The notes beneath the pieces are model-generated. The model was not told the DNA's origin. It made no database searches and saw only the letters and a list, made by a program, of their open reading frames with translations. DNA of 64,000 bases. It comes from Bolinopsis microptera. Taxonomy: Eukaryota > Ctenophora > Tentaculata > Lobata > Bolinopsidae. Below are positions 583-53,645 of the stretch, in pieces. The first letter of the stretch is position 1; each line of letters opens with the position of its first letter. Position numbers and translations under genes: made by a program. Where the stretch lies: contig NC_087081.1 in NCBI RefSeq assembly GCF_026151205.1, positions 17,964,859 to 18,028,858 of the forward strand, read 5' to 3'.

Positions 583-980
583 GCAGTGGCCGCCCTTAAT
601 AATACCACCCTTAATAAAAATTTATCTTCTCCTACATTTTTTTCAGCAATCACCCTCAAACTTTTAGGATATGTTCTAGGGATCATTTAGAAGATTTGAC
701 TCGAGCCGAAATTTTATTCGAATTGAAAATCTTGGACCTCAAAAAATCGTCAAAAAACGAGGTCCAAGATTTTCAAAATCGAACAAAAAGTTTTTAAAGG
801 CCTCTCAAATTGCCGCCCTTAATGCCACCCTTAATTCCACCCTTAATGCCGCCCTTAATGCCGCCCTTAATGCCGCCCTTAATTCCACCCTTAATTCCAC
901 CCTTAATGCCGCCCCTAATGGCGCCCCCTTAATACCACTCTTAATGCCGCCCTTAATTCCACCCTTAATGCCGCCCTTAA
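583..980. repeat. Partial fold-back element plus 12-bp TTAA array, copy 1
   Basis: Positions 611-806 are an internal piece of the TTAA fold-back family, with a hairpin at about 709-797 whose arms carry GGTCCAAGATTTTCAAAATC and its complement. Positions about 810-980 are an array of a 12-bp unit close to CCGCCCTTAATG with variants (TTCCAC, ATACCAC). The block recurs about 864 bp downstream, so the 0.58-2.3 kb region is a tandem duplication. Confidence 0.8.
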
Positions 981-1435
981 GGGGGCAGGGGGGGTCTTTA
1001 TGAAATACCTCTCGAAATTAATTTTATAGTTGTTTCTGATAGAGGGGAGTAATATCTACCAGATGCTTTTGGTCCCATGGACAAATTTTGTTCCTAGCCG
1101 AAATTATTGCCGATCAAAGGTCAGCGCTCATGTGTAATTGAATTGCGCGAGCGATTTTCAATCGCGCGCCCTGAAAATCGAGTCTAAAAATCTATCTTCT
1201 CCTACATTTTTTGAGCAATCACCTTGAAACTTTCAGGATATGTTTTAAGGACCATTTAAAAACTTCTGGTCTATCAGAATTTTAAAATAGGCCTTAGAAA
1301 AGTTTTTATTCGATTTTGAAAATCTTGGACCTCGTTTTTTGACGATTTTTTCAGGTCCAAGATTTTCAAAATCGAATAAAAACTTTTCTCAAAAGACCCC
1401 CCCCCCCCCCCCTAAAAAGACCCCCCCCTGCCCCC
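981..1435. mobile_element. TTAA-bounded fold-back element, short form, copy 1
   Basis: The 455-bp element lies between TTAA at 977-980 and TTAA at 1436-1439. It starts GGGGGCAGGGGGG and ends with the complement CCCCCCTGCCCCC. A long hairpin sits at 1297-1388. The first 310 bp match the left arm of the complete 725-bp copy at 57434-58158, but most of the right arm is missing. The TTAA flanks and G-rich termini suggest a non-autonomous element mobilised by a TTAA-specific (piggyBac-like) transposase. That assignment is inference, because no transposase of that type is in the window. Confidence 0.7.
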
Positions 1436-1439
1436 TTAA

Positions 1440-1840
1440 TGGCGCCCTTAATGCCGCCCTTAATAATACCACCCTTAATAAAAATTTATCTTCTCCTACA
1501 TTTTTTTCAGCAATCACCCTCAAACTTTTAGGATATGTTCTAGGGATCATTTAGAAGATTTGACTCGAGCCGAAATTTTATTCGAATTGAAAATCTTGGA
1601 CCTCAAAAAATCGTCAAAAAACGAGGTCCAAGATTTTCAAAATCGAACAAAAAGTTTTTAAAGGCCTCTCAAATTGCCGCCCTTAATGCCACCCTTAATT
1701 CCACCCTTAATGCCGCCCTTAATGCCGCCCTTAATGCCGCCCTTAATTCCACCCTTAATTCCACCCTTAATGCCGCCCCTAATGGCGCCCCCTTAATACC
1801 ACTCTTAATGCCGCCCTTAATTCCACCCTTAATGCCGCCC
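1440..1840. repeat. Duplicated fold-back piece plus 12-bp TTAA array, copy 2
   Basis: Near-identical to 583-976, shifted by about 864 bp: an internal hairpin piece at about 1475-1670 and then a 12-bp unit array at 1677-1840. Confidence 0.8.
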
Positions 1841-1844
1841 TTAA

Positions 1845-2296
1845 GGGGGCAGGGGGGGTCTTTATGAAATACCTCTCGAAATTAATTTTATAGTTGTTTC
1901 TGATAGAGGGGAGTAATATCTACCAGATGCTTTTGGTCCCATGGACAAATTTTGTTCCTAGCCGAAATTATTGCCGATCAAAGGTTAGCGCTCATGTGTA
2001 ATTGAATTGCGCGAGCGATTTTCAATCGCGCGCCCTGAAAATCGAGTCTAAAAATCTATCTTCTCCTACATTTTTTGAGCAATCACCTTGAAACTTTCAG
2101 GATATGTTTTAAGGACCATTTAAAAACTTCTGGTCTATCAGAATTTTAAAATAGGCCTTAGAAAAGTTTTTATTCGATTTTGAAAATCTTGGACCTCGTT
2201 TTTTGACGATTTTTTCAGGTCCAAGATTTTCAAAATCGAATAAAAACTTTTCTCAAAAGACCCCCCCCCCCCCCTAAAAAGACCCTCCCTGCCCCC
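1845..2296. mobile_element. TTAA-bounded fold-back element, short form, copy 2
   Basis: The 452-bp element lies between TTAA at 1841-1844 and TTAA at 2297-2300. It is nearly identical to the 981-1435 copy, including the hairpin (about 2162-2251) and the poly-C run near the right end. Confidence 0.7.
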
Positions 2297-2622
2297 TTAA
2301 TGGCGCCCTTAATGCCGCCCTTAATGGCGCCCTTAATGCCGCCCTTAATGCCGCCCTTAATACCACCCTTAATTCCACCCTTAATGCCGCCCTTGATGCC
2401 GCCCTTAATATCACCCTTAATATCACCCTTAATGTCGCCCTTAATGCCGCCCTTAATGCCGCCCTTAATGCCACCCTTAATACCGCCCTTAATACCGCCC
2501 TTAATGCCACCCTTAATGCCGCACTTAATTCCACCCTTAATGCCGCCCTTAATGCCGCCCTTAATATCACCCTTAATATCACCCTTAATGTCGCCCTTAA
2601 TGCCGCCCTTAATGCCGCCCTT
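2297..2622. repeat. 12-bp TTAA minisatellite array
   Basis: About 27 units of a 12-bp repeat, CCGCCCTTAATG and variants. Open frames on both strands (monotonous Met-Pro-Pro-Leu or Leu-Arg-Ala-Ala repeats) are by-products of the 12-bp period and are not taken as genes. Confidence 0.9.
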
Positions 2623-2639
2623 ACAAAACCGGAAAAAGT

Positions 2640-2836
2640 TCAGGAGTTAATTAATAAATAATGATTTGGTGTATTCGTGTGGTGTTATTGAGTCTCATTC
2701 GATAGTTCTTTGATTCAAATTTTTGATTGTTTCTGAATAGACTCCGTGAAGACAGATTCTAATGGAAATAAATATCTGAATAACGTAATCGAGGCAATTT
2801 GGTAGTCTAGCTCTAGCTAGGCACACTTGGGGCACA
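2640..2836. repeat. Left arm of large palindromic element, first copy
   Basis: Matches 5880-6066, the left arm of the palindrome at 5881-6376, so the fold-back/TTAA block and this arm were duplicated together. It ends at the CACTTGGGGCAC repeat, where fold-back sequence resumes. Confidence 0.75.
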
Positions 2837-2890
2837 AAAATCGTCAAAAAACGAGGTCCAATATTTTCAAAATCGAACAAAAAGTTTTCA
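2837..2890. mobile_element. Fold-back element, left part split by LINE insertion
   Basis: It carries the same GTCAAAAAACGAGGTCCA hairpin arm seen near 750. It breaks at about 2888 and the next fold-back bases resume at about 4829. The intervening 1.9 kb is LINE sequence inserted here. Confidence 0.7.
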
Positions 2891-2918
2891 ATTTACTTAC
2901 TTGAAAAGGTCTCCTCCT
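2891..2918 (-). mobile_element. 3' tail of RTE-like LINE fragment, detached
   Basis: The sequence ACTTACTTGAAAAGGTCTCC is the complement of the 3' tail of the RTE-like LINE at 33388-33420. It belongs to the - strand copy at 4128-4828 and was separated from it by the RNase H LINE. The bases at 2904-2918 are one copy of the 15-bp target duplication. Confidence 0.75.
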
Positions 2919-4081
2919 CACCGTCACCACTCCTGGAACTAACAACACTGAATACAGAACCGCACTCCAACACACCATCGACAACATTACCAGTGAAACG
3001 ATCACCTGCTACACAGACGGGTCTCTATCAGACTCCGGAAGTGGGGCTGGGTACATCATCACGACTGACAACAACAACACCACCCTGGAAGAGAGATCAT
3101 TCAAGCTCCCTGATTATTGTACTGTCTACCAGACAGAACTCACTGCAATCATTGAAGCCTGCAAGTATCTCTCATCCTACACCAATTCACACATCATTAT
3201 ATGGTCTGATAGTCTCTCCTCCATACAAGCTATTTCCTCGCTTTCAACGAGGAGCAGAACTACTAGAGACTGTTATGACACCCTTAACGCACTCGGATCG
3301 AACAACACTCTAGAGATCCGATGGATCGCAGCCCATATTGGGTTGTGGGGAAATGAAAAAGCGGATGAGCTGGCCAAGCTTGGCACGACCAGCGAACACG
3401 TTTTGAAATGCCCAATCCCTCAATCTTACATCAAACGACAAATCAACAACAAAGTCCACAGACTGAATCAGGATATCTGGTTAACGGATGGTCCTAGACA
3501 CACCAAACTAACACTTGGCCAAAAGCACACCAAAATAATCAATAATATAAACACGTCACTCATCAACAATAGACAAGACTATAGAACCGCAGTCCACCTA
3601 ATCACGGGCCACTGTGGCTTAAACAAACACCTCCACACCATCCGCAAATCAAGCACCAGTGCTTGTCCTATGTGCGGTGACGGAGAGGAAACTGTCTCAC
3701 ACTTTCTTGGACAGTGCCCAGCTATTGCCCAAATAAGAGGTCAATACTTTCGGGACTACTACCTCTCGGTCAACGACATATTCGACAACCACCACATTAC
3801 CACAATCGTCAACTTCACAAACCGCACCAAACGCTTAATAGTACCAGAAGAACTGGATCAGACTGGCGTAACTTAGCGCATTAACACATTACATATGCAG
3901 CCTTGCCTAACTGATTTATAAACTCATCTGGTACCAAAGCGCGGTATTCCCATTCAGATCATTACCACCACCGTCCTCCACAATTCACACTGTTGTCTCC
4001 GATAAACCCCCCCTCATCCCAGAGGTAGGCAAAGCATCTTAATGCTATCCTCTAGTGGGCTTTCTATGCCCAGCCTCTCTT

Positions 4082-4130
<49 letters not shown>
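2919..4130 (+). mobile_element. 5'-truncated LINE with RNase H domain and poly-A tail
   Basis: The element starts inside its ORF, carries the RNase H and C-terminal region, a short 3' UTR, and a poly-A run of about 45 bases at 4086-4130. It is flanked by AAAAGGTCTCCTCCT at 2904-2918 and again immediately after the poly-A, the expected target-site duplication of target-primed reverse transcription. The target is the 3' tail of a - strand RTE-like LINE fragment. Confidence 0.9.
2920..3876 (+). pseudogene. LINE ORF2 C-terminal part: RNase H and zinc-knuckle region
   Basis: This single open frame of about 318 codons has no native start because the element is 5'-truncated. RNase H motifs are visible in order: CYTDGS (first catalytic Asp) near codon 28, YQTELTAIIEA (catalytic Glu), WSDSLSSIQA (catalytic Asp), and AHIGLWGNEKADELAK near codon 140. 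A C-terminal Cys-rich segment, ACPMCGDGEETVSHFLGQC, follows. This layout fits the I/Jockey-type group of LINEs with RNase H, where the domain removes RNA from the cDNA hybrid. The reverse transcriptase and endonuclease are missing. A second, more decayed copy lies at 61264-62654 on the - strand, and its differences from this copy are easy to read. Confidence 0.85.
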
Positions 4131-4132
<2 letters not shown>

Positions 4133-4139
4133 TCTCCTC

Positions 4140-4828
4140 CTAGTCGTTGGAGTGGCCTGCACCACATAGTAACTCCTTTCTCCGGTGTATTAGACCTCTC
4201 CAGTGAACCCTGTCTATAGCTTGTTGTTCTGCATCTTCTATCGTGATGTTATCGACACCTGTGAAGATTGCTGCATCCTCCCGGACACATGACAACCAGT
4301 TTTTCCGAGGTCTACCTCTTGACCTTTTACCATGCTTTGGGATCCAGTGCAGAAGATAATTGGGTATTCTTTCTTCTGGCATCCTCACCACATGGCCAAA
4401 CCATCGGAGTCTAGCTGCTCGTACGAAAGTATCAACAGGGGCGATGTTAGCCCGCTTAAGTACATCAGCATTAGAGACATGATAAAACCATTTGATTTTC
4501 AGGATTCTCCTCAGACATCTATGATGGAACACCTCAAATCTTTTCATCTGCGTCTGTGTGGTATTCCATACCTCACTTCCATAAAGCAGTATAGTGAGCA
4601 CAGCCGCTTTGTAAATCCTGATTTTAGTTGGAGTCTTAATGCTGCGACTGTACCATATACTGCTAAGCTGATAGAATGCCCCAGAGGCCTTTTGAATTCG
4701 AGCTGATAGTTCTTTGTCAATTGTTCCATTCGCACTGATGATTGCACCCAAGTAAGTGAAATTGCTGACCTGCTGTATTGGGAGACCTTCCACATTGATG
4801 TCCATAGTGTCGTCTTTAGACTTTTTAA
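4140..4828 (-). pseudogene. RTE-like LINE, 3' end of ORF2 (truncated copy)
   Basis: The 221-residue frame at 4140-4805 (reading from the high coordinate down) is identical to the C-terminus of the LINE ORF ending at 33387, except for one residue (AIDRVHW here, ATDRVHW there). It covers the region after the reverse transcriptase core, with LLYGSEVW and RWFGHVVRMPEERIPNYLL. The copy is 5'-truncated at about 4828, where it joins fold-back sequence. The near identity implies recent activity. It has no independent function. Confidence 0.9.
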
Positions 4829-5078
4829 AGTTTTTAAAGGCCTCTCAAATTGCCGCCCTTAATGCCACCCTTAATTCCACCCTTAATGCCGCCCTTAATG
4901 CCGCCCTTAATGGCGCCCTTAATGCCGCCCTTAATACCACTCTTAATGCCGCCCTTAATTCCACCCTTAATTCCACCCTTAATGCCGCCCCTAATGGCGC
5001 CCTTAATGCCGCCCTTAATACCACTCTTAATGCCGCCCTTAATGCCGCCCTTAATTTCACCCTTAATGCCGCCCTTAA
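4829..5078. repeat. Fold-back right part and 12-bp TTAA array, copy 3
   Basis: The sequence resumes exactly where 2837-2890 stopped (TTTTTAAAGGCCTCTCAAAT) and continues into about 18 units of the 12-bp TTAA repeat. Confidence 0.8.
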
Positions 5079-5539
5079 GGGGGCAGGGGGGGGGTCTTTA
5101 TGAAATTCCTCTCGAAATTAATTTTATAGTTGTTTCTGATAGAGGGGAGTAATATCTACCAGATGCTTTTGGTCCCATGGACAAATTTTGTTCCTAGCCG
5201 AAATTATTGCCGATCAAAGGTCAGCGCTCATGTGTAATTGTATTGCGCGAGCGATTTTCAATCGCGCGCCCTGAAAATCGAGTCTAAAAATCTATCTTCT
5301 CCTACATTTTTTGAGCAATCACCTTGAAACTTTCAGGATATGTTTTAAGGAACATTTAAAAACTTCTGGTCTATCAGAATTTTAAAATAGGCCTTAGAAA
5401 AGTTTTTATTCGATTTTGAAAATCTTGGACCTCGTTTTTTGACGATTTTTTCAGGTCCAAGATTTTCAAAATCGAATAAAAACTTTTCTCAAAAGACCCC
5501 CCCCCCCCCCCCCCCCCTAAAAAGACCCTCCCTGCCCCC
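5079..5539. mobile_element. TTAA-bounded fold-back element, short form, copy 3
   Basis: The 461-bp element lies between TTAA at 5075-5078 and TTAA at 5540-5543. It has the same G-rich left end, hairpin at 5397-5490 and C-run near the right end (about 21 Cs) as copies 1 and 2. Confidence 0.7.
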
Positions 5540-5857
5540 TTAATGGCGCCCTTAATGCCGCCCTTAATGGAGCCCTTAATGCCGCCCTTAATACCGCCCT
5601 TAATTCCACCCTTAATGCCGCCCTTAATGCCGCCCTTAATACCGCCCTTAATACCGCCCTTAATGCCGCCCTTAATGCCGCCCTTAATTCCACCCTTAAT
5701 GCCGCCCTTAATATCACCCTTAATATCACCCTTAATGTCGCCCTTAATGCCGCCCTTAATTCCACCCTTAATGCCGCCCTTAATGCCGCCCTTAATATCA
5801 CCCTTAATATCACCCTTAATGTCGCCCTTAATGCCGCCCTTAATGCCGCCCTTACAA
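5540..5857. repeat. 12-bp TTAA minisatellite array
   Basis: About 26 units of CCGCCCTTAATG-type repeat, matching the order of variants in the 2297-2622 array. The two arrays are duplicates. Confidence 0.9.
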
Positions 5858-5880
5858 AACCGGAAAAAGTTCAGGAGTTA

Positions 5881-6376
5881 ATTAATAAATAATGATTTGG
5901 TGTATTCGTGTGGTGTTATTGAGTCTCATTCGATAGTTCTTTGATTCAAATTTTTGATTGTTTCTGAATAGACTCAGTGAAGACAGATTCTAATGGAAAT
6001 AAATATCTGAATAACGTAATCGAGGCAATTTGGTAGTCTAGCTCTAGCTATGCACACTTGGGGCACACTTGGGGCACAAAATTGTATTTCCTGGGGCACA
6101 GTTGGGGCATAAAGTGTGCCCCAGGGAAATACAATTTTGTGCCCCAAGTGTGCCCCAAGTGTGCCCCAAGTGTGCCTAGCTAGATTACCAAATTGCCCGT
6201 AATCGACATTTCTACGTCATACTCATAATTGTTATATGTTAACAAATAATTTGAGAAGATGAGTATGACGTAGAAATGTCCATACGTTATTCAGATATTT
6301 ATTTCCATTAGAATCTGTCTTCACTGAGTCTATTCAGAAACAATCATAAATTTGAATCAAAGAAATAATGATTTAT
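5881..6376. repeat. Large palindromic element with nested mini-element
   Basis: The left arm (5881-6090) and right arm (about 6110-6376) are inverted copies sharing AATCTGTCTTCACTGAGTCT and CAAATTGCC. Around the centre lie GTGCCCCAAGTGTGCCCC repeats. The right arm is longer because of a 76-bp insert at 6205-6280. Confidence 0.85.
6205..6280. mobile_element. 76-bp inverted-repeat mini-element
   Basis: Terminal inverted repeats of 22 bp begin GACATTTCTACGTCATACTC and close with the complement. The core is AT-rich. It interrupts the right arm of the surrounding palindrome at a point where the left arm is continuous, so it is a later insertion. Confidence 0.7.
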
Positions 6377-16300: not shown

Positions 16301-19300
16301 CCGCAGCAAGTCTTCTGTTCATGGTAAGGGCACAAAAGAAATATTATTATTTATCAATCTTCGTTAAAAAATACGATCATAACTATATCAATCCAAGCAC
16401 TAACATGCTTGTCAATGGCCCACAGGTTGATGATCCGGAATTATATCATTAACTTAGGAACTATCATCAAATTGGAACGACAGTTTTCAAATCGTGGAAA
16501 TGTTTCGCATTACATCGTGAAACCTGTGTCGAGTCAATGTGAGAGACTCAGGCCAGCGATTTGAGCCAATATTATACATTTATCACATTCCTTCTCATGC
16601 GATATCAAAACTTTCGCCCACTAGGCTTGCCGAGTTATAGCGAAAGTTTATATCAAAATTTTCAAACCCGAGTTTTGAAAATGTTGATATTGCATGAGAT
16701 TTGAGAATGCATGTGAATAATCATTAATATTTTATCACACGTTCTTTGGAGCCAAATCTGGCCCGAAAAGCAGAATTTGATCAGACGATGGAGTAAACTA
16801 TACGTGTCACAGTTAATTTTGTAGAGTATTTAATTTCTATAGTTTCATCAGTACAGCATGAATAATTAAAACGAGTTAAAACGTGTTAACTTAGGTTTTC
16901 CCGTGCTCAATATTCTGTCGTAGTGAATGCTGGCGTAGTGTGATATATTGTCATGTATTACTCCGTGTTACTTAATTAAAAAGTAAACTTTATTTCTAAT
17001 ATCTCGGTCTGTTTCAGCCGGTCTGGAGACAGTATCCGGACTTGTGAGCAGTGCTTATCTTGCTTTACAGAACAGTAGCTCAGGTATGTGCCGGTATTTT
17101 GTTAGTATACATTTTTCGGAAATGGTGTTTTGATTGTGATTTTTCTGACGTTTTTTCGCCAAGTTTTTTATTGTTACATATTAATGCTTTTCATACAAAG
17201 TTGCAACAAATTCTTCATGTTATACATCCTGGGTATGACCCGTTTAATTTTTATTTTCCATCACGTTTCATAATTCTCAATAAATGTATCTATACATATT
17301 TTATAGATGTATAGATACATATAGATCTATAGATGTAATAGATTTGTAGTGTCAGGCACGTAGCCAGGGGGGCTGCAGCCCCCTAGTCCCCTGGTCGCCT
17401 GGTAACTGGGCTGTGTTTATGTCTGCAGTCTGTACTGTTTAAACGGCAGGCAATTGACGCGAGTACTTGATTTTTTTCAGTCCCAGTTTATTGCTATCCA
17501 ACAAATTTCTTTAATGCCAAATATCGTCTAAAACACCCTATTTCTCAAAATTTTCCATCTCGTTGAGCTTCAACCAATTGTGAAATTTGAAGAAAATCTG
17601 CGCTATTTACAGTAAATTGAGCATGGTTTTCTGGCGAATCTTGTTATGTGGTAAAATATTAAAAAGGCTAACAAGAGCGCGAACGACAAAACATTTAAAA
17701 AAGTAAAAACTAAATTAGCTAGCACTGAGTGTAACGCGCGCGGTCTTCGCGCCGTGCGGCAAGTTGTTATGATATTTGTAGCTCTGGAAACAAACATTGA
17801 ACAATTATCGGGAAAAAATGTCTACTATACAATTGCCGACAGCAAAAAATATCATATAATAGGGAATAAATGATCAGGTTTAGATACATGAAGTGGCCCG
17901 ACGGCGCTATATTGATGACAAAAGTCTGCTCGTTATTATTATTAAATCATTCTATCAAACAAGGCCAGGGATAGTTAAAAACAACGCCCAAGTCTAATCT
18001 TTGGCGTCTAAACTACGGAGATAATACAGATCAATACATCAAGAAATATAAAGATTTCTTTTACATAAATCATGCACAATCAGCGAGAATAGATTGATTT
18101 GGGGTCTTCCTCTTCTCACTGGTAAGTTCAGTGTATTGATGGCAAAAATGAGGGAAGAAAACACTGGTCCGTCAATAGGACCCCGCAAAACATGTTTTAA
18201 CATTCTCTGCACCGACTACGGGCCATTTTTTCTGACAATGGTTCATCATTGCAGCGTTTATTCAAGTTTTTGTTGGATATGACTCCTGGGTACTTTATAT
18301 TATAATCAAAATAGTGCGAAGTCTGCGGTGAACTGCATCATGCATGGATGATGATTAATCACTCTACACTCGACTGTCACGTGACTTTTTCAACTCGTTC
18401 TCTAGCTGGCCCTGAACGACTATTCGAAACTCTAACCCTCTAATCTGATCCCAACCCTAACCCTAACCCTATCCTTAACAAAAGCATATGCTGAAACCCT
18501 AACCCTGACGAGAAATTGGACTAACTTCCTTATACGGTCATGTCACGTGATCGAGACAGTTTTCGCCAATATCCCGTCAATACATACTCTTTTCATTTAT
18601 CCTCGGTCAAATCAGCCGAATGATTAGGAAACCGTGATTGAGTGTTGAATGAGTGTCATCAGATCAGGCCCTAGTTTCCACCTTTTTAAGAAACTACCGC
18701 CTTGTGTCCTATTCCCATGGAATGCACTTCCTTGACCATCGCTGGCCAAATTCATGATTGAACTTTTGGCTACTACTGGTTTATAGATTAAAACGTATCT
18801 TAATTAAAATGTTTTGCAAATCAAAATCAATCTGACCGTGTATAATGAAAACGTTTAGAAATGAATTTGAGACTCAGTTTTCAAATAAAACAATTATTGC
18901 GTAGATTACTGGTGACGCCTAAACGCCACTGAATTATTATATTTATGGTTAACCATTCTAAACTGCGGGACCAACTTTTAGCCAACATTAGTCAATGTTG
19001 GCGACAGTTATGTTAAGGCCGCTTCAAAATTGCAATTCTGATTTTGTTTGTGTAATTTGGAAATACGGTTAAATTTTAATATTATTACTCCAGGTGTGAA
19101 CAAATCTGCCAATCAAGTAGTAAAAACCTACAGTGGCAACGTTTACTTCGGCAAATGTAAACAGTGGATCGAAGAGAACAGCGAACTTAAAAGACTACTT
19201 ATAACTTCATACAGGTTGTTAATCTTTTTGTCACCCCTCTCCTTATCCTCCCCCACCTCTTTTATTCTTCCTCCTCCCTACTCTCTTCCTTATCCTCCCC

Positions 19301-22300
19301 CACCTCTTTTATTCTTCCTCCTCCCTACTCTCTTCCTTATCCTCCCCCACCTCTTTTATTCTTCCTCCTCCCTACTCTCTTCCTTATCCTCCCCCACCTT
19401 TTTTATTCTTCCTCCTCCCTACTCTCTTCCTTATCCTCCCCCACCTCTTTTATTCTTCCTCCTCCCTACTCTCTTCCTTATCCTCCCCCACCTTTTTTAT
19501 TCTTCCTCTTACCTACTCTCTTCATTATCCTCCCCCACCTCTTTTATTCTTCCTCCTCCCTACTCTCTTCCTTATCCTCCCCCACCTCTTCTTTTCTTCC
19601 TCCTCCCTACTCTCTTCCTTGTCCTCCACCACCTCTTTTATTCTTCCTCCTCCCTACCCTCTTCCTTATCCTCCCCCACCTCTTTTATTCTTCCTCCTCC
19701 CTACTCTCTTCCTTATCCTCCCCCACCTGTTTTATTCTACCTCCTCCCTACTCTCTTCCTTATCCTCCTTCACCTCTTTTATTCTTCCTCCTCCCTACTC
19801 TCTTCCTTATCCTCCCAAACCTCGTTTATTCTTCCTCCTCCCTACTCTCTTCCTTATCCTCCCCCACCTTTTTTATTCTTCCTCTTACCTACTCTCTTCC
19901 TTATCCTCCCCCACCTCTTTTATTCTTCCTCCTCCCTACTCTCTTCCTTATCCTCCCCCACCTCTTTTATTCTTCCTCCTCCCTACTCTCTTCCTTGTCT
20001 TCCACCACCTCTTTTATTCTTTGTCCTCCCTACTCTCTTCCTTATCCTCCCCCACCTCTTTTATTCTTCCTCCTCCCTACTCTCTTCCTTATCCTCCCCC
20101 ATCTCTTTTATTCTTCCTCCTCCCTACTCTCTTCCTTGTCCTCCACCACCTCTTTTATTCTTCCTCCTCCCTACTCTCTTCCTTATCCTCCCCCACCTCT
20201 TTTATTCTTCCTCCTCCCTACTCTCTTCCTTATCCTCCCCCACCTCTTTTATTCTTCCTCCTCCCTACTCTCTTCCTTGTCCTCCACCACCTCTTTTATT
20301 CTTCCTCCTCCCTACTCTCTTCCTTATCCTCCCCCACCTCTTTTATTCTTCCTCCTCCCTACTCTCTTCCTTATCCTCCCCCACCTCTTTTATTCTTCCT
20401 CCTCCCAACTCTCTTCCTTGTCCTCCACCACCTCTTTTATTCGTCCTCCTCCCTACTCTCTTCCTTATCCTCCCCCACCTTTTTTATTCTTCCTCCTCCC
20501 TACTCTCTTCCTTATCCTCTCCCACCTCTTTTATTCTTCCTCCTCCCTACTCTCTTATTTATCCTCCCTCACCTCTTTTATTCTTTCTCCTCCCTACACT
20601 CTTCCTTGTCCTCCACCACCTCTTTTATTCTTCCTCCTCCCTACTCTCTTCCTTATCCTCCCCCACCTCTTTTATTCTTCCTCCTCCCTACTCTCTTCCT
20701 TGTCCTCCACCACCTCTTTTATTCTTCCTCCTCCCTACTCTCTTCCTTATCCTCCCCCACCTCTTTTATTCTTCCTCCTCCCTACTCTCTTCCTTATCCT
20801 CCCCCACCTCTTTTATTCTTCCTCCTCCCTACTCTCTTCCTTGTCCTTTATTATTATTATTATCTAACTTTTAAAACAATCTCGAAATAGTAAAGAAACA
20901 TCTTAAGAGACTGATAAGTGCCCAAAAAAACATAACAGTTCTCTGAAAAAGAAAGGTTAATTATGAGGTAAATAATTTTCTCCACAAAACTCTGTTAGAG
21001 GCAGTAGCCCTAAGATCATAAAGATCATTAATATCACGTAATGGTAGGTTTCTTTTATTCAAATCATGTATAATAAACTTTAAAAGATTACTTTGGTGTC
21101 GACCAACACGTCCTTTCATGGTAAATAACGCATTAACAGCAAATTGAAGAGCTCTCTGAGCTGGTGATGAGCAGTCACTGCGAAGGACATGTCCAAGCAT
21201 TTTCCAGCGAGCATATGTCACTCGCTCTGACAACGGTGTTACACCACAGCGTTCATAGAGTGCTTTATTACTGATAATAATGGGATAAGTCATCTTCAAT
21301 ATTTGACGCAGGTGTCTTCTATGACATGCATCAAGTTTGTCAAATAGGTTCTGAGGGGTAGCCCAGCTATTGCAGTTATAGAGCATAACAGATGTAACGT
21401 ATGCTTCGTATATCTTAATCTTGGTCTTCAGATTAATCTTAGATCCTTGCATCCAAACTTTCTTGTATTTTTCGAATGCAACATTTCCAAGGATTATACG
21501 ATGCTGTATGTCTTCTTTACTACATAGCTTAGAGCCTAGGGACACACACTTCCTCCAAGGTTCTCTATTTCTTAGAGGTTCTCCTTTACCACCTCTTTTA
21601 TTCTTCCTCCTCACTACTCTCTTCCTTGTCCTCCCCCACCTCTTTTATTCTTCCTCCTCCCTAATCGCTTCCTTATCCTCCCCCACCTCTTTTATTCTTC
21701 CTACTCTCTTCCTTATCCTCCCCCACCTCTTTTATTCTTCCTCCTCCCTACTCTCTTACTTATCATCCCCCACCTCTTTTATTCTTCCTCCTCCCTACTC
21801 TCTTCCTTATCCTCCCCCACCTCTTTTATTCTTCCTCCTCCCTACTCGCTTCCTTATCCTCCCCCACCTCTTTTATTCTTCATCCTCCCTACTCTCTTCC
21901 TTATCCTCCCCCAGCTCTTTTATTCTTCCTCCTCCCTACTCTCTTCCTTGTCCTCCACCACCTCTTTTATTCTTTCTCCTCCCTACTCTATTCCTTATCC
22001 TCCCCCACCTCTTTTATTCTTCCTCCTCCCTACTCTCTTCCTTATCCTCCCCCACCTCTTTTATTCTTCCTCTTACCTACTCTCTTCCTTATCCTCCCCC
22101 ACTTCTTTTATTCTTCCTCCTCCCTACTCTCTTCCTTATCCTCCCCCACCTCTTTTATTCTTCCTCCTTCCTACTCTCTTCCTTGTCCTCCCCCACCTCT
22201 TTTATTCTTCCTCCTCCCTACTCTCTTCCTTGTCCTCCACCACCTCTTTTATTCTTCCTCCTCCCTACTCTCTTCCCTATCCTCCCCCACCTCTTTTATT

Positions 22301-25300
22301 CTTCCTCCTCCCTACTCTCTTCCTTATCCTCCCCCACCTCTTTTATTCTTCCTCCTCCCTACTCTCTTCCTTGTCCTCCACCACCTCTTTTATTCTTCCT
22401 CCTCCCTACTCTCTTCCTTGTCCTCCACCACCTCTTTTATTCTTCCTCCTCCCTACTCTCTTCCTTATCCTCCCCCACCTCTTTTATTCTTCTTCCTCCC
22501 TACTCTCTTCCTTATCGTCCCCCACCTCTTTTATTCTTCCTCCTCCCTACTCTCTTCCTTATCCTCCCCCACCTCTTTTATTCTTCCTCCTCCCTACTCT
22601 CTTCCTTATTCTCCCCCACCTCTTTTATTCTTCCTCCTCCCTACTCTCTTCCTTATCCTCCCCCACTTCTTTTATTCTTCCTCCTCCCTACTCTCTTCCT
22701 TGTCCTCCACCACCTCTTTTATTCTTCCTCCTCCCTACTCTCTTCCTTGTCCTCCACCACCTCTTTTATTCTTCCTCCTCCCTACTCTCTTCCTTATCCT
22801 CCCCCACCTCTTTTATTCTTCTTCCTCCCTACTCTCTTCCTTATCGTCCCCCACCTCTTTTATTCTTCCTCCTCCCTACTCTCTTCCTTATCCTCCCCCA
22901 CCTCTTTTATTCTTCCTCCTCCCTACTCTCTTCCTTATTCTCCCCCACCTCTTTTATTCTTCCTCCTCCCTACTCTCTTCCTTATCCTCCCCCACTTCTT
23001 TTATTCTTCCTCCTCCCTACTCTTTTCCTTATCCTCCCCCACGTCTTTTATTCTTCCTCCTCCCTACTCTCTTCCTTATCCTCCTTCACCTCTTTTATTC
23101 TTCCTCCTCCCTACTCTCTTCCTTATCCTCCCCCACCTGTTTTATTCTTCCTCCTCCCTACTCTCTTCCTTATCCTCCCCCACCTTTTTTATTCTTCCTC
23201 CTCCCTACTCTCTTCCTTGTCCTTTACCACCTCTTTTATTCTTCCTCCTCCCTACTCTCTACCTTGTCCTCCCCCACCTCTTTTATTCTTCCTCCTCCCT
23301 AATCGCTTCCTTATCCTCCCCCACCTCTTTTATTCTTCCTCCTCCCTACTCTCTTCCTTATCCTCCCCCACCTCTTTTATTCTTCCTCCTCCCTACTCTC
23401 TTACTTATCCTCCCCCACCTCTTTTATTCTTCCTCCTCCCTACTTTCTTCCTTATCCTCCCCCACCTCTTTTATTCTTCCTCCTCCCTACTCTCTTCCTT
23501 ATCCTCCCCCACCTCTTTTATTATTCCTCCTCCCTACTCTCTTCCTTATCCTCCCCCACCTCTTTTATTCTTCCTCCTCCCTACTCTCTTCCTTGTCCTC
23601 CCCCACCTCTTTTATTCTTCCTCCTCCCTACTCTCTTCATTATCCTCCCCCACCTCTTTTATTCTTCCTCCTCCCTACTCTCTTCCTTATCCTCCCCCAC
23701 CTCTTTTATTCTTCCTCCTCCCTACTCTCTTCCTTATCCTCCCCCACCTCTTTTATTCTTCCTCCTCCGTACTCTCTTCCTTATTCTCCCCCACCTCTTT
23801 TATTCTTCCTCCTCCCTACTCTCTTCCTTATCCTCCCCCACCTCTTTTATTCTTCCTCCTCCCTACTCTCTTCCTTATCCTCCCCCACCTCTTTTATTCT
23901 TCCTCCTCCCTACTCTCTTCCTTGTCCTCCCCCACCTCTTTTATTCTTCCTCCTCCCTACTCTCTTCCTTATCCTCCCCCACCTTTTTTATTTTTCCTCC
24001 TCCCTACTCTCTTCCTTGTCCTTTACCACCTCTTTTATTCTTCCTCCTCACTACTCTCTTCCTTGTCCTCCCCCACCTCTTTTATTCTTCCTCCTCCCTA
24101 ATCGCTTCCTTATCCTCTCCCACCTCTTTTATTCTTCCTACTCTCTTCCTTATCCTCCCCCACGTCTTTTATTCTTCCTCCTCCCTACTCTCTTACTTAT
24201 CCTCCCCCACCTCTTTTATTCTTCCTCCTCCCTACTCTCTTCCTTATCCTCCCCTACCTCTTTTATTCTTCATCCTCCCTACTCTCTTCCTTATCCTCCC
24301 CCACCTCTTTTATTCTTCATCCTCCCTACTCTCTTCCTTATCCTCCCCCACCTCTTTTATTCTTCCTCCTCCCTACTCTCTTCCTTATCCTCCCCCGCCT
24401 TTTTTATTCTTCCTCCTCCCTACTCTCTTCCTTATCCTCCCCCACCTCTTTTATTCTTCATCCTCACTACTCTCTTCCTTGTCCTCCCCCACCTCTTTTA
24501 TTCTTCCTCCTCCCTAATCGCTTCCTTATCCTCCCCCACCTCTTTTATTCTTCCTACTCTCTTCCTTATCCTCCCCCACCTCTTTTATTCTTCCTCCTCC
24601 CTACTCTCTTACTTATCATCCCCCACCTCTTTTATTCTTCCTCCTCCCTACTCTCTTCCTTATCCTCCCCCACCTCTTTTATTCTTCCTCCTCCCTACTC
24701 GCTTCCTTATCCTCCCCCAGCTCTTTTATTCTTCATCCTCCCTACTCTCTTCCTTATCCTCCCCCAGCTCTTTTATTCTTCCTCCTCCCTACTCTCTTCC
24801 TTGTCCTCCACCACCTCTTTTATTCTTTCTCCTCCCTACTCTATTCCTTATCCTCCCCCACCTCTTTTATTCTTCCTCCTCCCTACTCTCTTCCTTATCC
24901 TCCCCCACCTCTTTTATTCTTCCTCTTACCTACTCTCTTCCTTATCCTCCCCCACCTCTTTTATTCTTCCTCCTCCCTACTCTCTTCCTTATCCTCCCCC
25001 ACCTCTTTTATTCTTCCTCCTCCCTACTCTCTTCCTTGTCCTCCCCCACCTCTTTTATTCTTCCTCCTCCCTACTCTCTTCCTTGTCCTCCACCACCTCT
25101 TTTATTCTTCCTCCTCCCTACTCTCTTCCCTATCCTCCCCCACCTCTTTTATTCTTCCTCCTCCCTACTCTCTTCCTTATCCTCCCCCACCTCTTTTATT
25201 CTTCCTCCTCCCTACTCTCTTCCTTGTCCTCCACCACCTCTTTTATTCTTCCTCCTCACAACCCTCTTCCTTATCCTCCTTCACCTCTTTTATTCTTTGT

Positions 25301-25654
25301 CCTCCCTAACTAAGGCCTAAGTCTCTTAGTCTTAGGCCTTAAGTATTTTCATAGCACTAATATAAAAATTCATTTTGGTTCATGGCTTGAGGTCTTTGTT
25401 CATGGCTGAATCCGAAATAATTTACACTGGGGGTCGCGATATGGGTGTGGTCAAAAAGGGCGTGATTCCGAGAAATTGTGTTACTTAGGACCATATAAGT
25501 CGGATTACATTGAGAAACTTAGCAGACGTCCCAAATCCCAATGTGAGCGGGACTTTTGCCAGGTTCAGGATTACAGCGGTCGCTTAACCCTTATAATTTT
25601 ATTGACGAGGCATCCGCTGAAATTTCCAAAACCGTCCTGACCCCACCTCCCCCC

Positions 25655-30472: not shown

Positions 30473-33387
30473 AGTTGGACTTGCTGGGTATAACTGAGAC
30501 CCATATGCCTGGTACAGGATCAGAGCTACTGGATAATGGCTCCTTACTTATTTATTCAGGGAGGACGGACGGTATAAGAAGGCGAGGTGTCGGTCTTACC
30601 CTTTCAAAGAGGACTAAAAATTCATTAATTTCCTATCTACCAATATCTGACCGTTTGTTGAGTGCAAGGCTGCATAGTCAACACCTGAACATCTCTGTTG
30701 TTGTGGCATATGCGCCAACTGAGGGGGCTTCAGATAATGATAAGGATGAATTCTACCAGCAGTTGTCAAGTGCATTCGATGAGCTACCCCGACATGATTT
30801 AAAATTACTGCTCGGTGATCTTAATGCTAAGGTCACATCGGACTGCAGTTCTATGTCAGGTGTCATTGGTGGACACTCGCTTCACAGCTCATCAAATGAC
30901 AATGGTACCCGATTGTTGGACTTTTGCATTGCCCACCAACTTACCATCGGTGGCACTATGTTTCAGCAAAAGGATATACATAAAGGTACGTGGAGATCGT
31001 CTAATGGTCGTACTGTAAACCAAATAGACCACATCTGTATCAGTAAGAAGTTTGGAGGCTCTTTGCTAAATGTAAAAGTTTGTAGGGGGGCTGACATTGG
31101 GTCTGATCACTATTTGGTAAGAGCACGACTGAGAATGAAGCTTATGTCAGTGAAAAAGAAGCAGGAACGTAAGCTTGAGATTCCTGCTATTGAGCATCTG
31201 CGTGATCATTCACTTGTTTCCGAATACAATATTGTTCTGAGAAACAAATTTGACTGTTTGGAACCTGAGGTTGACCTGGAATCAATGTGGGACAACTTCA
31301 AGACAACTGTCCAACAAGTTTCCATGGAAATCCTTGGGCAAAGACCTCGAAAAAAGAAGGACAGGCACCAATCTCAGAAGACAAAAGAATTATTGAAGAA
31401 CCGTAAGGAATTTAAGCGTAAAGACCCTAATTCGAACGCTAACAGGTCAGAGTATTCTAGATTGAATAAGCTCTTTTAAAAAAGTAGCAAGGTGGACGAT
31501 AACAACTGGGCACGTAGAATGGCCAATGACTTGGAAGAAGCTGCGAGAAAAGGTCAGCAACGTGAGGTATGGCAGAAGATCAATGTCATATCTGGAAAGA
31601 AGAAGAAGCAGTCAACTGCAGTTAGAGACGTATCTGGCCAGTTGATTGCCGACCCACATGCCCAGAAAGAAAGGTGGAAAGAGCATTTCTCTAGGCTATT
31701 GAACCCTCCCCCGCAAGAGGCCAATATTTCTGACCTAGACAACATCCCTCCGCAACCCAGTTTTGACGACCTTTCCGATTCGGATGAAGCTCCTACAAGA
31801 AACGAGATTGTTGATGCCCTAAAAAAACTCAAGAATCACAAAAGTCCAGGAGTGGATGGTATCACCAACGAGCAACTTAAGTATGGACAGGATGGGTTGG
31901 TCGATCAACTAGTTGTGTTGTTCAAGAAAGTGTGGGAAGATGAGAAGATTCCTGAGGATTGGTCCAAAGGTGTTATCATCATCGTTGGAAAGAAAGGTGA
32001 CACCTCTCATTGCGCTAACAACAGAGGCATTACATTAAGATCCACAGCCTCGAAGCTCCTGCAAATGATACTCCTGCGGAGACTTAGCAATGGCATGGAA
32101 AAATTCCTCCGGGAGAATCAAAGTGGTTTTAGACAGAATCGCTCATGTATTGACCAGGATTATTCACTCTGCTGTATTATACACCAATGCATTGAGTATA
32201 ATATCCCTCTGTATATTAATTTTGTTGATTTCAAAGCAGCTTTTGATTCGATTGACAGGCAGTTCATTTGGAGAAGTATGCAGCACTACGGCTTACCTGA
32301 CAAGTACATTAGAATTATGAAGGCGTTCTTCACTCACACAGTTAGTGCTGTTAGGGTCAATGGAGAGGTTACAGGTTGGTTTGATGTCAACTCGGGTACT
32401 GGGCAAGGTGATATACAGGGACCACCAGTATTCAACTTTTGTTTGAATTTTTCGGCATACCTTATGGAACTAAACAAGGTCATTAGCAAGGGGGCTTTAT
32501 TACAGCTGCCAGCCCCCGGGGTAGAAGAGAAACATCTCTTGGACACTGATTACGCTGATGACATGGCCATGTTAGATAACTCAAAAGAGGGGCTGCAGGA
32601 AACCACTGACCTTCTCTGCAAATACAGTGCCTATGCGGGTCTGAAGATTAATGCTGGAAAAACACAGAGCATGGTTGTCAGCAAAAGTGCATCGCAGAGG
32701 CCGTATTCTAAAGACGACACTATGGACATCAATGTGGAAGGTCTCCCAATACAGCAGGTCAGCAATTTCACTTACTTGGGTGCAATCATCAGTGCAAATG
32801 GAACAATTGACAAAGAACTATCAGCTCGAATTCAAAAGGCCTCTGGGGCATTCTATCAGCTTAGCAGTATATGGTACAGTCGCAGCATCAAGACTCCAAC
32901 AAAAATCAGGATTTACAAAGCAGCTGTTCTCACTATACTGCTCTATGGAAGTGAGGTATGGAATACCACACAGACACAGATGAAAAGATTTGAGGTGTTC
33001 CATCATAGATGTCTGAGGAGAATCCTGAAAATCAAATGGTTTTATCATGTATCTAATGCTGATGTACTTAAGCGGGCTAACATCGCCCCTGTTGATACTT
33101 TCGTACGAGCAGCTAGACTCCGATGGTTTGGCCATGTGGTGAGGATGCCAGAAGAAAGAATACCAAACTATCTTCTGCACTGGATCCCAAAGCATGGTAA
33201 AAGGTCAAGAGGTAGACCTAGGAAAAACTGGTTGTCATGTGTCCGGGAGGATGCAGCAATCTTCACAGGTGTCGATAACATCACGATAGAAGATGCAGAA
33301 CAACAAGCTACAGACAGGGTTCACTGGAGAGGTCTAATACACCGGAGAAAGGAGTTACTATGTGGTGCAGGCCACTCCAACGACTAG
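30473..33387 (+). pseudogene. RTE-like LINE ORF, endonuclease and reverse transcriptase
   Basis: A continuous frame of about 970 codons, broken only by a TAA at 31477-31479. Endonuclease motifs: LLGITETH, LLLGDLNAKV (catalytic GDLN), and near codon 220 GSDHYLV (catalytic SDH). Reverse transcriptase motifs: HKSPGVDGITNEQLK, FVDFKAAFDSIDR (first Asp), GTGQGDIQGPPVFNF, and TDYADDMAML (catalytic YADD). The C-terminal part has NFTYLGAIISANG, LLYGSEVW and RWFGHVVRMPEERIPN, and it ends HSND. This layout fits RTE-like elements widespread in invertebrates. Only one nonsense codon is seen in the coding part, so decay is slight. Confidence 0.9.
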
Positions 33388-42629: not shown

Positions 42630-44290
42630 CGGTTTTTTGATAGACCCTGAAATGACTCGTCCAGATCCAGTCATATCCTTAAATTTGAAATAACTCAATA
42701 GCTGAAATTTACTGATGACACTTTGTATAGTCTCCTCATTTCAGACTAGTGGTTAAAATGACTCGTCCAGATCCAGTTAAATCCTTAAATTTGAAATAAC
42801 TCAATAGCTGAAATTTATGATGATACTTTGTATGCTTGACCTCCAGTCCGCCAATTTTGAGATTCATAAAAATCGATTATGTTCAAAAGGTGTAGAATTA
42901 GATGGCGGTCAACATGGTGGTAACGATTTTTTGATAGACCTTAAAATGACTCGTCCAGATCCAGTCATATCCTTAAATTTGAAATAACTCAATAGCTGAA
43001 ATTTACTGATGACACTTTGTATGCTTGACCCCTAGTTCGGTATTTTTGAGACTCATAAAAATCGAGCATGTTTAAAAGGTGCAGAATTAAATGGCGGTCC
43101 AAACGGTCGTAACGATTTTTTGATAGACCCTAAAATGATTCGTCCAGATCCAGTCATATCCTTAAATTTGAAATAACTCAATAGCTGAAATTTACTGATG
43201 ACACTTTGTATGCTTGACCTCCAGAGTCCAGTCCGCCAATTTTGAGATTCATAAAAATCGATTATGTTCAAAAGGTGTAGAATTAAATGGCGGTCAACAT
43301 GGTGGTAACGATTTTTTGATAGACCTTAAAATGACTCGTCCAGATCCAGTTAAATCCTTAAATTTGAAATAACTCAATAGCTGAAATTTATGATGATACT
43401 TTGTATGCTTGACCTCCAGTCCGCCAATTTTGAGATTCATAAAAATCGATTATTTTCAAAAGGTGTAGAATTAGATGGCGGTCAACATGGTGGTAACGAT
43501 TTTTTGATAGACCTTAAAATGACTCGTCCAGATCCAGTCATATCCTTAAATTTGAAATAACTCAATAGCTGAAATTTACTGATGACACTTTGTATGCTTG
43601 ACCCACAGTCCGCCAATTTTGAGATTCATAAAAATCGATTATGTTCAAAAGGTGTAAAATTAAATGGCGGTCAACATGGTGGTATCGATTTTTTGATAGA
43701 TCTTAAAATGACTCGTCCAGATCCAGTTAAATCCTTAAATTTGAAATAACTCAATAGCTGAAATTTATGATGATACTTTGTATGCTTGACCTCCAGTCCG
43801 CCAATTTTGAGATTCATAAAAATCGATTATTTTCAAAAGGTGTAGAATTAGATGGCGGTCAACATGGTGGTAACGATTTTTTGATAGACCTTAAAATGAC
43901 TCGTCCAGATCCAGTCATATCCTTAAATTTGAAATAACTCAATAGCTGAAATTTACTGATGACACTTTGTATGCTTGACCCACAGTCCGCCAATTTTGAG
44001 ATTCATAAAAATCGATTATGTTCAAAAGGTGTAAAATTAAATGGCGGTCAACATGGTGGTATCGATTTTTTGATAGATCTTAAAATGACTCGTCCAGATC
44101 CAGTTAAATCCTTAAATTTCAAATAACTCAATAGCTGAAATTTATGATGACACTTTGTATGCTTGCCCTCCAGTCCGCCAATTTTGAGATTCATAAAAAT
44201 CGATTATGTTCAAAAGGTGTAGAATTAAATGGCGGTCAACATGGTGGTAACGATTTTTTGATAGACCTTAAAATGACTCGTCCAGATCCT
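42630..44290. repeat. 189-bp satellite, about 9 copies
   Basis: Repeating marks are ACTCGTCCAGATCCAGT, TTGAAATAACTCAATAGCTG, CGCCAATTTTGAGATTCATA and AATGGCGGTCAACATGGTGG, at spacings of 186-195 bp. The first spacing is only about 107 bp, because that copy is shortened. Alternate copies share variants (GTTAAATCC or GTCATATCC), giving a ~380-bp dimeric period. Confidence 0.93.
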
Positions 44291-53275: not shown

Positions 53276-53645
53276 CCCTACCAAATCCAGTTAAATCCTT
53301 AAATTTGAAATAACTCAATAGCTGAAATTTATGATGACACTTTTTATGCTTGACCCCCAGACCGCCATTTTTGAGATTCATAAAAATCAATTGTTTCCAA
53401 AAGGTGTAGAATTAAATGGCGGTCAACATGGTGGTAACGATTTTTTAATAGACCTTAAAATGACTCGTCCAGATCCAGTTAAATCCTTAAATTTGAAATA
53501 ACTCAATAGCTGAAATTTATGATGACACTTTGTATGCTTGACCCCCAGACCGCCAATTTTGAGATTCATAAAAATCAATTGTTTCCAAAAGGTGTAGAAT
53601 TAAATGGCGGTCAACATGGTGGTAACGATTTTTTGATAGTAAAAC
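53276..53645. repeat. 189-bp satellite, two more copies
   Basis: Same unit as 42630-44290 (TTGAAATAACTCAATAGCTG, AATGGCGGTCAACATGGTGG), 9 kb away. It carries its own variants (AAAATCAATTGTTTCC) in both copies. Confidence 0.9.

Follow-up and report, generated by a model that had tools for sequence, protein, structure and literature searches.

Minisatellites built from the tips of a TTAA-inserting fold-back transposon family were found at three loci of the Bolinopsis microptera genome, and in the window (the whole 64,000-nucleotide stretch analysed) an element of this family lies in register within an array that already carried TTAA. The explanation that we favour, and consider probable, is that junctions between target and element tip became arrays, that the window array took one insertion of a Kolobok-type fold-back element, and that the resulting block was then duplicated.

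Results

Fold-Back Elements and 12-mer Arrays in the Window

Three short and one complete TTAA-bounded element with inverted ends had been described in the first-pass annotation, and their coordinates were exact to the base (Table 1). In all three short elements TTAA abuts both ends directly on the outside, and one internal deletion, judged by eye, is common to them. The arms of the complete copy are 93.5% identical, a single base differs beside TTAA at its right tip, and an adjoining tandem array was absent according to TRF. The complete copy (725 nt) is predicted to fold into one long hairpin of −342.9 kcal/mol (mean of 20 shuffles −76.5, sd 4.7) and the short copy into a smaller hairpin (z −11). 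Scanning the window for Rfam families and tRNAs gave no match at the respective thresholds.

Table 1. Features of the fold-back cluster and of the complete element, in window coordinates.
Feature	Position	Strand	Description
Composite unit, first copy	589-1464	.	Relic (615-809), 12-mer array, short element and array remnant
Internal fold-back piece without either outer arm	612-811	+	Array on both sides
12-mer array TGCCGCCCTTAA, left of short element 1	811-980	+	14.0 copies (TRF)
Short fold-back element 1	981-1435	.	455 bp; TTAA 977-980 and 1436-1439
12-mer array remnant, right of short element 1	1429-1464	+	TRF; range overlaps element tip
12-mer array, duplicate of 811-980	1675-1844	+	TRF; duplication by alignment
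Short fold-back element 2	1845-2296	.	452 bp; duplicate of element 1
12-mer array, right of element 2	2290-2623	+	27.9 copies (TRF); range overlaps element tip
Stretch with two ORFs that resemble retrotransposon fragments (by eye)	2837-4826	.	Interrupts another copy of the relic
12-mer array, left of element 3	4851-5078	+	19.0 copies (TRF)
Short fold-back element 3	5079-5539	.	461 bp; TTAA 5075-5078 and 5540-5543; diverged duplicate of elements 1 and 2
12-mer array, right of element 3	5533-5854	+	26.9 copies (TRF); range overlaps element tip
Full-length fold-back element	57434-58158	.	725 bp; TTAA 57430-57433 and 58159-58162

The 12-mer arrays reported beside the elements of the left cluster were confirmed by TRF, which calls TGCCGCCCTTAA (reverse complement TTAAGGGCGGCA) at six ranges. 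A query with positions 612-826 returned 81 scored matches, nearly all of them inside 615-809 when the cluster's own copies are set aside. The ORFs within or near the stretch at 2837-4826 lie at 2905-3876 (+) and 4140-4844 (−); the arrangement of the stretch and the likeness of the two ORFs to retrotransposon fragments were judged by eye alone.

Alignment of the cluster with itself revealed that 589-1464 and 1453-2325 are 99.4% identical, which is an 864-bp tandem duplication, and that 1651-2836 and 4827-6067 are 91.5% identical. These matches mean that the short elements, rather than being three separate events, go back to one insertion that was later duplicated. The short elements thus lend no support to the earlier idea of a repeatedly hit target.

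Genome-wide, a three-unit 12-mer pattern with at most 3 mismatches gave 100 matches compared with 3 for the control. On C10 lie 99 of them, in this cluster or in its copy at 18.159 Mb, and the remaining match, with 3 mismatches, is on C9. The array was found only in the cluster and in this copy of it, 194 kb apart, and the search met none of the arrays without an element end that would have spoken against the first-pass annotation. The copy at 18.159 Mb aligns at 98.2% with the sequence to the left of the cluster and on into it, and then falls to ~75%, the 5319 columns containing 538 deletion events. It was rejected as independent evidence, being a copy of the cluster that resembles poor assembly.

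Insertion into Existing Arrays

When the window element and one TTAA were removed and the flanks joined, the 12-bp register was restored; the array units run in one direction on either side of the near-palindromic element. The restored register indicates that the array already existed when the element entered, which supports insertion into a pre-existing TTAA-bearing array and, for the window elements, the suggested route of a TTAA-rich array as target. Growth of the array from the very elements now in the window is very improbable. On the right, TGCCGCCCTTAA does follow on from TGCCCCCTTAA, the element end, without a change of orientation, but the left array runs opposite to growth from the left end, and such growth does not agree with the restored register.

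A single array called by TRF also spans the joined site at L048 (39-mer), L062 (10-mer) and L071 (21-mer), where the array units are unlike the element terminus. In the joined flanks the register was visible by eye at the window elements, L048, L062 and L099. Elements lay in TTAA arrays in 3 of the 30 other paired copies, compared with 95 of 400 TTAA sites in the window and with 11 of 141 control TTAA sites at the same loci, 7 of the 11 falling in the three array-borne loci. As this is not clearly more than the control, a preference of the family for arrays was dropped.

Classical FB foldback elements contain tandem repeats within their long inverted ends. The arrays might likewise be the element's own terminal repeats, moving with it, and the relevant passages on the Tetris element do place tandem repeats inside its TIRs (PMC4079207). 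We regard this as the least probable reading. In the window and at L099 the two flanking arrays point the same way, whereas repeats belonging to an FB-type element would be inverted relative to each other; 27 of the 30 paired copies are spanned by no array; the full window copy has none; and the 12-mer array was found only at the window cluster and its copy. The loci read included no recognisable dispersed copy bearing inverted arrays within widely separated TTAA duplications.

A TTAA-Specific Family and Its Probable Transposase

The genome search for the terminus that had been proposed recovered a large family. The 16-mer of TTAA and terminus, TTAAGGGGGCAGGGGG, has 427 exact occurrences (212 + 215) in 264.65 Mb, a few of them in arrays, and the reversed pattern has 3 (2 + 1). 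The 26 full-length copies measure 692-745 bp and their arms are 89.5-99.4% identical. In loci picked by internal similarity, with TTAA not used in the choice, TTAA was present at 31 of 36 recognised ends and on both sides of 12 of 13 paired elements. Copies lacking TTAA, named beforehand as contrary evidence, therefore exist as a minority. On C1 and C2, 16 of the 18 ends retrieved with a TTAA-free terminus pattern recur, by eye, in the TTAA list. The family is TTAA-specific, non-autonomous, fold-back and MITE-like, about 0.7 kb long, with many dispersed copies: TTAA is duplicated at both ends, and the dispersed copies have a common length and inverted arms.

Elements of the piggyBac superfamily duplicate a TTAA target, as this family does, and a piggyBac-like transposase with matching ends had been anticipated. 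The family end TTAA-GGGGGCAGG was found at none of the 26 PF13843 matches, some of which are pieces of one gene, within ~1.5 kb, a range that farther ends would escape; piggyBac was rejected as the partner on this result. A single GGGGGCGGG at L005 lies away from TTAA. Unlike the family, four piggyBac copies (L018, L019, L021 and L023) have the perfect ends CCCTTATCATACTGGG. The piggyBac match L022 has other inverted pairs, and the remaining 21 matches showed no end pair within the fetched 1.5-kb flanks. Neither a transposase with the family's ends nor, outside the interiors of candidate long end pairs, an autonomous copy was found.

The family terminus is GGGGGC. It starts with GG and thus fits the TTAA target duplication and RR terminus that characterise Kolobok and its MITEs in the pertinent part of PMC6004289. 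The TTAA target and the GG terminus make a Kolobok-type transposase the most likely agent of the family's movement and a better fit than piggyBac. Unlike in T2-MITE, the AGGRR motif is absent here and no transposase is linked to the family.

Arrays Derived from the Element Terminus

Units that begin with TTAA followed by element-tip bases were found at C6:11102537 (22), C11:7921630 (15) and C12:8837462 (13); TTAA included, 17-26 bases match the terminus. The units of terminus-derived arrays are about 29-31 bp long. The pattern TTAAGGGGGCA-N{0,30}-TTAAGGGGGCA occurred at 29 places, spread over 5 loci, against none for the control, and longer units (gap 31-60) at 23 places confined to the C6, C9, C11 and C12 loci. 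Arrays of the CC-type terminus gave 2 places versus 1 in the control and were set aside as evidence.

At L097 there are 9 units of about 31 bp and no element, and the first 26 bases of the commonest unit recur without a mismatch at the ends of L067 and L086. L098 comprises 32.1 copies (TRF), in many of which GTGGGG replaces GGGGG. At L099 a full CC-type element stands between CA-type units, 4 on one side and 3 on the other. The left flank there differs from the tail of the unit, and plain duplication of the junction therefore does not account for this unit. The terminus-derived array at C12 encloses a full element that belongs to another subtype. These data support the C6, C11 and C12 arrays as minisatellites derived from the element terminus. 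The suggestion that an array grew out of the element end thus holds at these three loci and is only probable for the window 12-mer.

Arrays of TTAA plus G5 occurred at 318 places in transposon-end orientation (reversed control 19) and at 117 mirrored (control 35). When loci were grouped by eye among the matches listed, up to C9:596222, TTAAGGGGG tandems made up 20 loci and mirrored GGGGGTTAA tandems 24, and an excess in transposon-end orientation was rejected. At L100 and L101, 11-13 bases match the terminus, a likeness that may be due to chance since TTAA-plus-G5 arrays are common anyway.

Origin of the Window 12-mer

Compared with the terminus, the window 12-mer scored 0.75, and the best of 56 unrelated TTAA arrays, which are not all independent (L071 is present five times and L072 twice), scored 0.29. 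Judged from this similarity, the 12-mer probably shares the terminus origin, as a worn descendant. Coincidence is a possible, less probable account, in which an ordinary TTAA-containing minisatellite received a chance insertion at TTAA, the block was duplicated, and the likeness of unit and terminus reflects composition. It is favoured by the abundance of arrays (tandem arrays hold 95 of the 400 TTAA sites sampled in the window, and TRF gives 66 rows in 64 kb), by 12 of 168 permutations of the 12-mer's own 8 bases matching the terminus equally well, and by the elements at L062, L048 and L071, whose arrays are built of other units. Against it, none of the 56 arrays reaches the 12-mer in similarity to the terminus, and terminus-derived arrays occur elsewhere in the genome.

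Discussion

According to the explanation that we prefer, in which tip junctions became arrays, a fold-back family of about 0.7 kb inserts at TTAA, most likely by means of a Kolobok-type transposase. The junction of TTAA and terminus has been tandemly duplicated into a minisatellite at least three times, probably through replication slippage at the G-runs of the terminus. Since every resulting unit holds TTAA, the family could insert into any of them. The window's 12-bp TTAA array, probably a worn descendant of such a terminus, received one fold-back insertion. Most of one arm was presumably already missing from the inserted copy when the block of array, element and array was duplicated to give three copies. 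More tentatively, and rather unlikely in our estimate, these steps could form a self-feeding loop in which tips with their TTAA are repeatedly copied into arrays, the arrays present dense, terminus-like TTAA targets, the same family re-enters them (C12 and the window), and precise excision can leave an orphan array of nothing but transposon tips (C6). If this is true, the transposon supplies the sites at which it lands, and satellites are its residue.

The birth of satellites from transposons is already known from Xmix/Xstir and Tetris, as far as the relevant parts of the sources describe them. In Xenopus, part of the T2-MITE, a TTAA-targeting MITE of the Kolobok superfamily with a purine-rich terminus like that of the present family, gave rise to an extensive family of tandem repeats (PMC6004289), and a TIR is given as the source of the Xenopus tandem family in Table 1 of PMC9659126. 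The amplified Xenopus segment is described as internal to the MITE, whereas the units in Bolinopsis microptera begin at the junction with TTAA, carry the extreme tip and form short separate arrays. In Drosophila virilis, Tetris is likewise a non-autonomous foldback element that served as a source of tandem units, its TIR having supplied satellite units (PMC4079207). In that account the units are about 220 bp and lie inside the TIR; here their length is about 29-31 bp or, in the window, 12 bp, and they hold the target site.

The seeding of satellites by transposons is accepted, but its initial step is seldom observed. Here, one family in one genome presents separate array births at different sites, with short units that keep the tip and the target site, and in one case the same family was re-inserted into a terminus-derived array. 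The first duplication step, and the attraction of their own transposon by terminus arrays, thereby become directly testable.

Structure and Duplication of the Window Elements

The genome searched comprised 232 contigs (264.65 Mb); the window occupies C10:17964859–18028858. The element coordinates in the first-pass annotation were exact on re-reading of the sequence. Folding showed that the full copy is a near-perfect hairpin with arms 93.5% identical, and the arms of 25 other full-length copies are 89.5–99.4% identical. The pairwise identity of the 26 full-length copies was 0.854–0.988 (median 0.898). In the short copies, about 365 bp remain to the left of the hairpin centre and only about 90 bp to the right (by eye). 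Because of the block identities of 99.4% and 91.5% (see table) and an internal deletion common to all three (by eye), the short elements are one insertion that was duplicated, not three insertions, and give no support to the array as a repeated target. Two ORFs between the second and third short copy resemble parts of a retrotransposon (by eye), and the stretch holding them interrupts a further copy of the internal relic. The relic without outer arms, within the 12-mer array, may be an older insertion. The cluster copy 194 kb away begins with 3 kb at 98.2% identity; in the 5319 columns of the stretch that follows, there are 538 deletion events, 98 insertion events, and 320 mismatches. It is probably an unpolished or falsely duplicated part of the assembly. 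At the end of contig C10, the terminal 2 kb contains no TTAGGG and one CCCTAA.

Features of the window and of other genome loci
Feature	Location	Strand	Remarks
Short elements	window 981–1435, 1845–2296, 5079–5539
Full copy	window 57434–58158
Relic	window 615–809		without outer arms
Fold-back arm	window 59771–59815		CC type; short remnant without TTAA; GATAAAGGGGGCCGGGGGGTC
Block pair	window 589–1464, 1453–2325		99.4% identical
Block pair	window 1651–2836, 4827–6067		91.5% identical
ORF	window 2905–3876
ORF	window 4140–4844	−	C-terminal protein nearly identical to ORF 31480–33387 (by eye)
ORF	window 31480–33387	+	longer than ORF 4140–4844; reverse-transcriptase-like (by eye)
Minisatellite	window 19240–25308		C/T-rich, 47 bp, ~129 copies
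ORF within minisatellite	window 20961–21644	−	part of LINE reverse transcriptase by look (by eye)
Tandem repeat, 188/189 bp	window 42753–44289, 53281–53639		seemingly the same repeat, ~9 kb apart
Interstitial telomere-like repeat	window 62195–62242		eight AGGGTT units
Cluster copy	L058 4667–10000 (C10:18159666–18164999)		hundreds of one- to three-base deletions after clean 3 kb
C6 array	L097		nine units of ~31 bp; commonest form TTAAGGGGGCAGGGGGGTCTTTATGAGGAGA
C11 array	L098		32.1 copies by TRF; extends to edge of piece read
C12 array	L099		4 + 3 units on two sides of full element
11-mer array, GGCACGGTTAA	L072 334–497, 1488–1640		stops a few bases short of element end
13-mer arrays, CTTCCCACCTAAA	L053 1145–1373, 1809–1892		adjoin truncated fold-back pieces
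Fold-back end with common flank, CCGACTTGACTGTATTA	L035–L038 (about 962–1947), L073, L084		~230 bp flank; recurs as one unit

Family Size and TTAA Target

The exact 16-mer TTAAGGGGGCAGGGGG had 427 matches in the genome versus 3 for the reversed pattern. A TTAA-independent set of loci was chosen by match to the inner part of the element (967 candidates, of which 40 were scored and gave 81 matches). Thirty loci were returned; L027–L029 are the window cluster or its copy, and L030–L056 lie elsewhere. In the latter, with L054 omitted as a repeat of L050, TTAA stood outside 31 of the 36 recognised ends, TTAT outside three (L036–L038, with a flank common to all), and CTAA and TCAA outside one each; at six further ends the terminus was unrecognisable by the script. 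TTAA was present at both sides in 12 of 13 paired elements of L030–L056 (L044 and L054 omitted as repeats). For all pairs, the count was 30/32, but the other 19 were pre-selected by TTAA at one or both ends. A terminus pattern that did not include TTAA gave 18 ends on C1 and C2, 16 of which were also in the TTAA-terminus list (compared by eye). Part of the element spread within a larger repeat, whose units in L035–L038 are 97.7–98.2% alike and match L073 and L084 at ~86–94% in pieces. Copies of piggyBac (L018, L019, L021, L023) are ~2.3 kb long with perfect ends, TTAA-CCCTTATCATACTGGG.

Arrays Built from the Element Terminus, and the Probable Case of the Window 12-mer

Two TTAAGGGGGCA sequences separated by 0–30 bases were found at 29 places in five loci, and at none with the reversed control; a rerun in the other orientation repeated this result. 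Units starting with TTAA and the tip at C6, C11, and C12 support, for these loci, one of two routes in the first-pass annotation, an array grown from the element end. The commonest unit of the C6 array opens with 26 bases that exactly match TTAA and the adjoining tip of L067 and L086; the tip of the window short copies has one to three Gs more. When the element from L062 and the two copies from the window were used as BLAST queries, only terminal pieces matched in the 1.1 kb read of this locus, and no element was recognised there. The array ends with a unit tail, TTAT, and new flank, which would fit the precise departure of a parent element. The 29-bp form of the C11 array has TTAA and 15 bases in common with the tip, and other units have GTGGGG. 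As the C12 units are of the CA subtype and the full element between them is of the CC subtype, another copy was probably the source of this array, which the element would have entered later. At C9 (L100) and C13 (L101), only 11–13 bases match the tip; the resemblance may be due to chance, since TTAA-G5 arrays are common both ways (20 vs 24 loci, up to C9:596222).

The reverse complement of the window 12-mer, TTAAGGGCGGCA, and TTAAGGGGGCA differ by a single inserted base. Its score against the terminus (0.75) was the highest against 56 unrelated TTAA arrays of the window and loci, which are partly non-independent (L071 five times, L072 twice) and omit L027–L029, L044, L054, L058, and L097–L101. 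The next score (0.29) belongs to L072, whose array adjoins an element end. Twelve of 168 permutations of the 12-mer's own bases score as well. The 12-mer array was found at no genome locus besides the cluster and its copy. By this sequence likeness, a terminus origin of the 12-mer is probable. In L072, inverted copies of the 11-mer unit lie ~1 kb further on, ending TTAAGGGGGCATACACC. One array junction in L053, CCCACTTAAGGTGGGTCGG, may be an element end from a different TTAA family, which would then have a terminus-like array of its own.

Order of Events

In the window, the arrays on both sides of the element are oriented alike. When the element and one TTAA were removed, the joined flanks gave an unbroken 12-bp register, and the unit register was likewise restored in L062 (10-mer TTAATTGACA), L048 (39-mer), and L099 (29-mer), all by eye. 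One TRF array spans the joined site in L048, L062, and L071 (21-mer). The element thus entered pre-existing arrays at these loci, and the joined sites act as natural empty sites. For the window elements, the restored register favours the other route in the first-pass annotation, a TTAA-rich array as target. Array insertion was seen for 3/30 elements versus 11/141 control TTAA sites (7 of the 11 in the same three loci), and 95/400 sampled window TTAA sites lay in arrays. Entry of the element into arrays occurs at about the background rate.

Proposed Mechanism and Known Systems

The best supported scheme combines TTAA-specific insertion, junction duplication, growth by unequal exchange, and re-entry. 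The element would insert at TTAA, and the junction would occasionally be duplicated in tandem; its G-runs may favour this step by making replication stall or slip. G-rich minisatellites can be unstable. The array would then grow by unequal exchange, as suggested by the 864-bp duplication, whose breakpoints lie in array sequence, and the family would re-enter the newly formed array.

PMC6004289 describes Kolobok with a TTAA target and an RR terminus, and the Xenopus Kolobok-type MITE Xmix as the source of Xstir repeats (also Table 1 of PMC9659126). The foldback element Tetris gave satellite units from its TIRs, according to PMC4079207. The present elements resemble Xmix as a TTAA-targeting MITE with a purine-rich terminus and a part turned into a tandem repeat, and Tetris in element ends as the source of units. 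A full-text search of open-licence papers for foldback TTAA elements together with minisatellites found none. The link from transposon to array is already known in kind; the variant here is array units, present at several loci, that extend across the TTAA junction, together with re-entry of the family into such an array.
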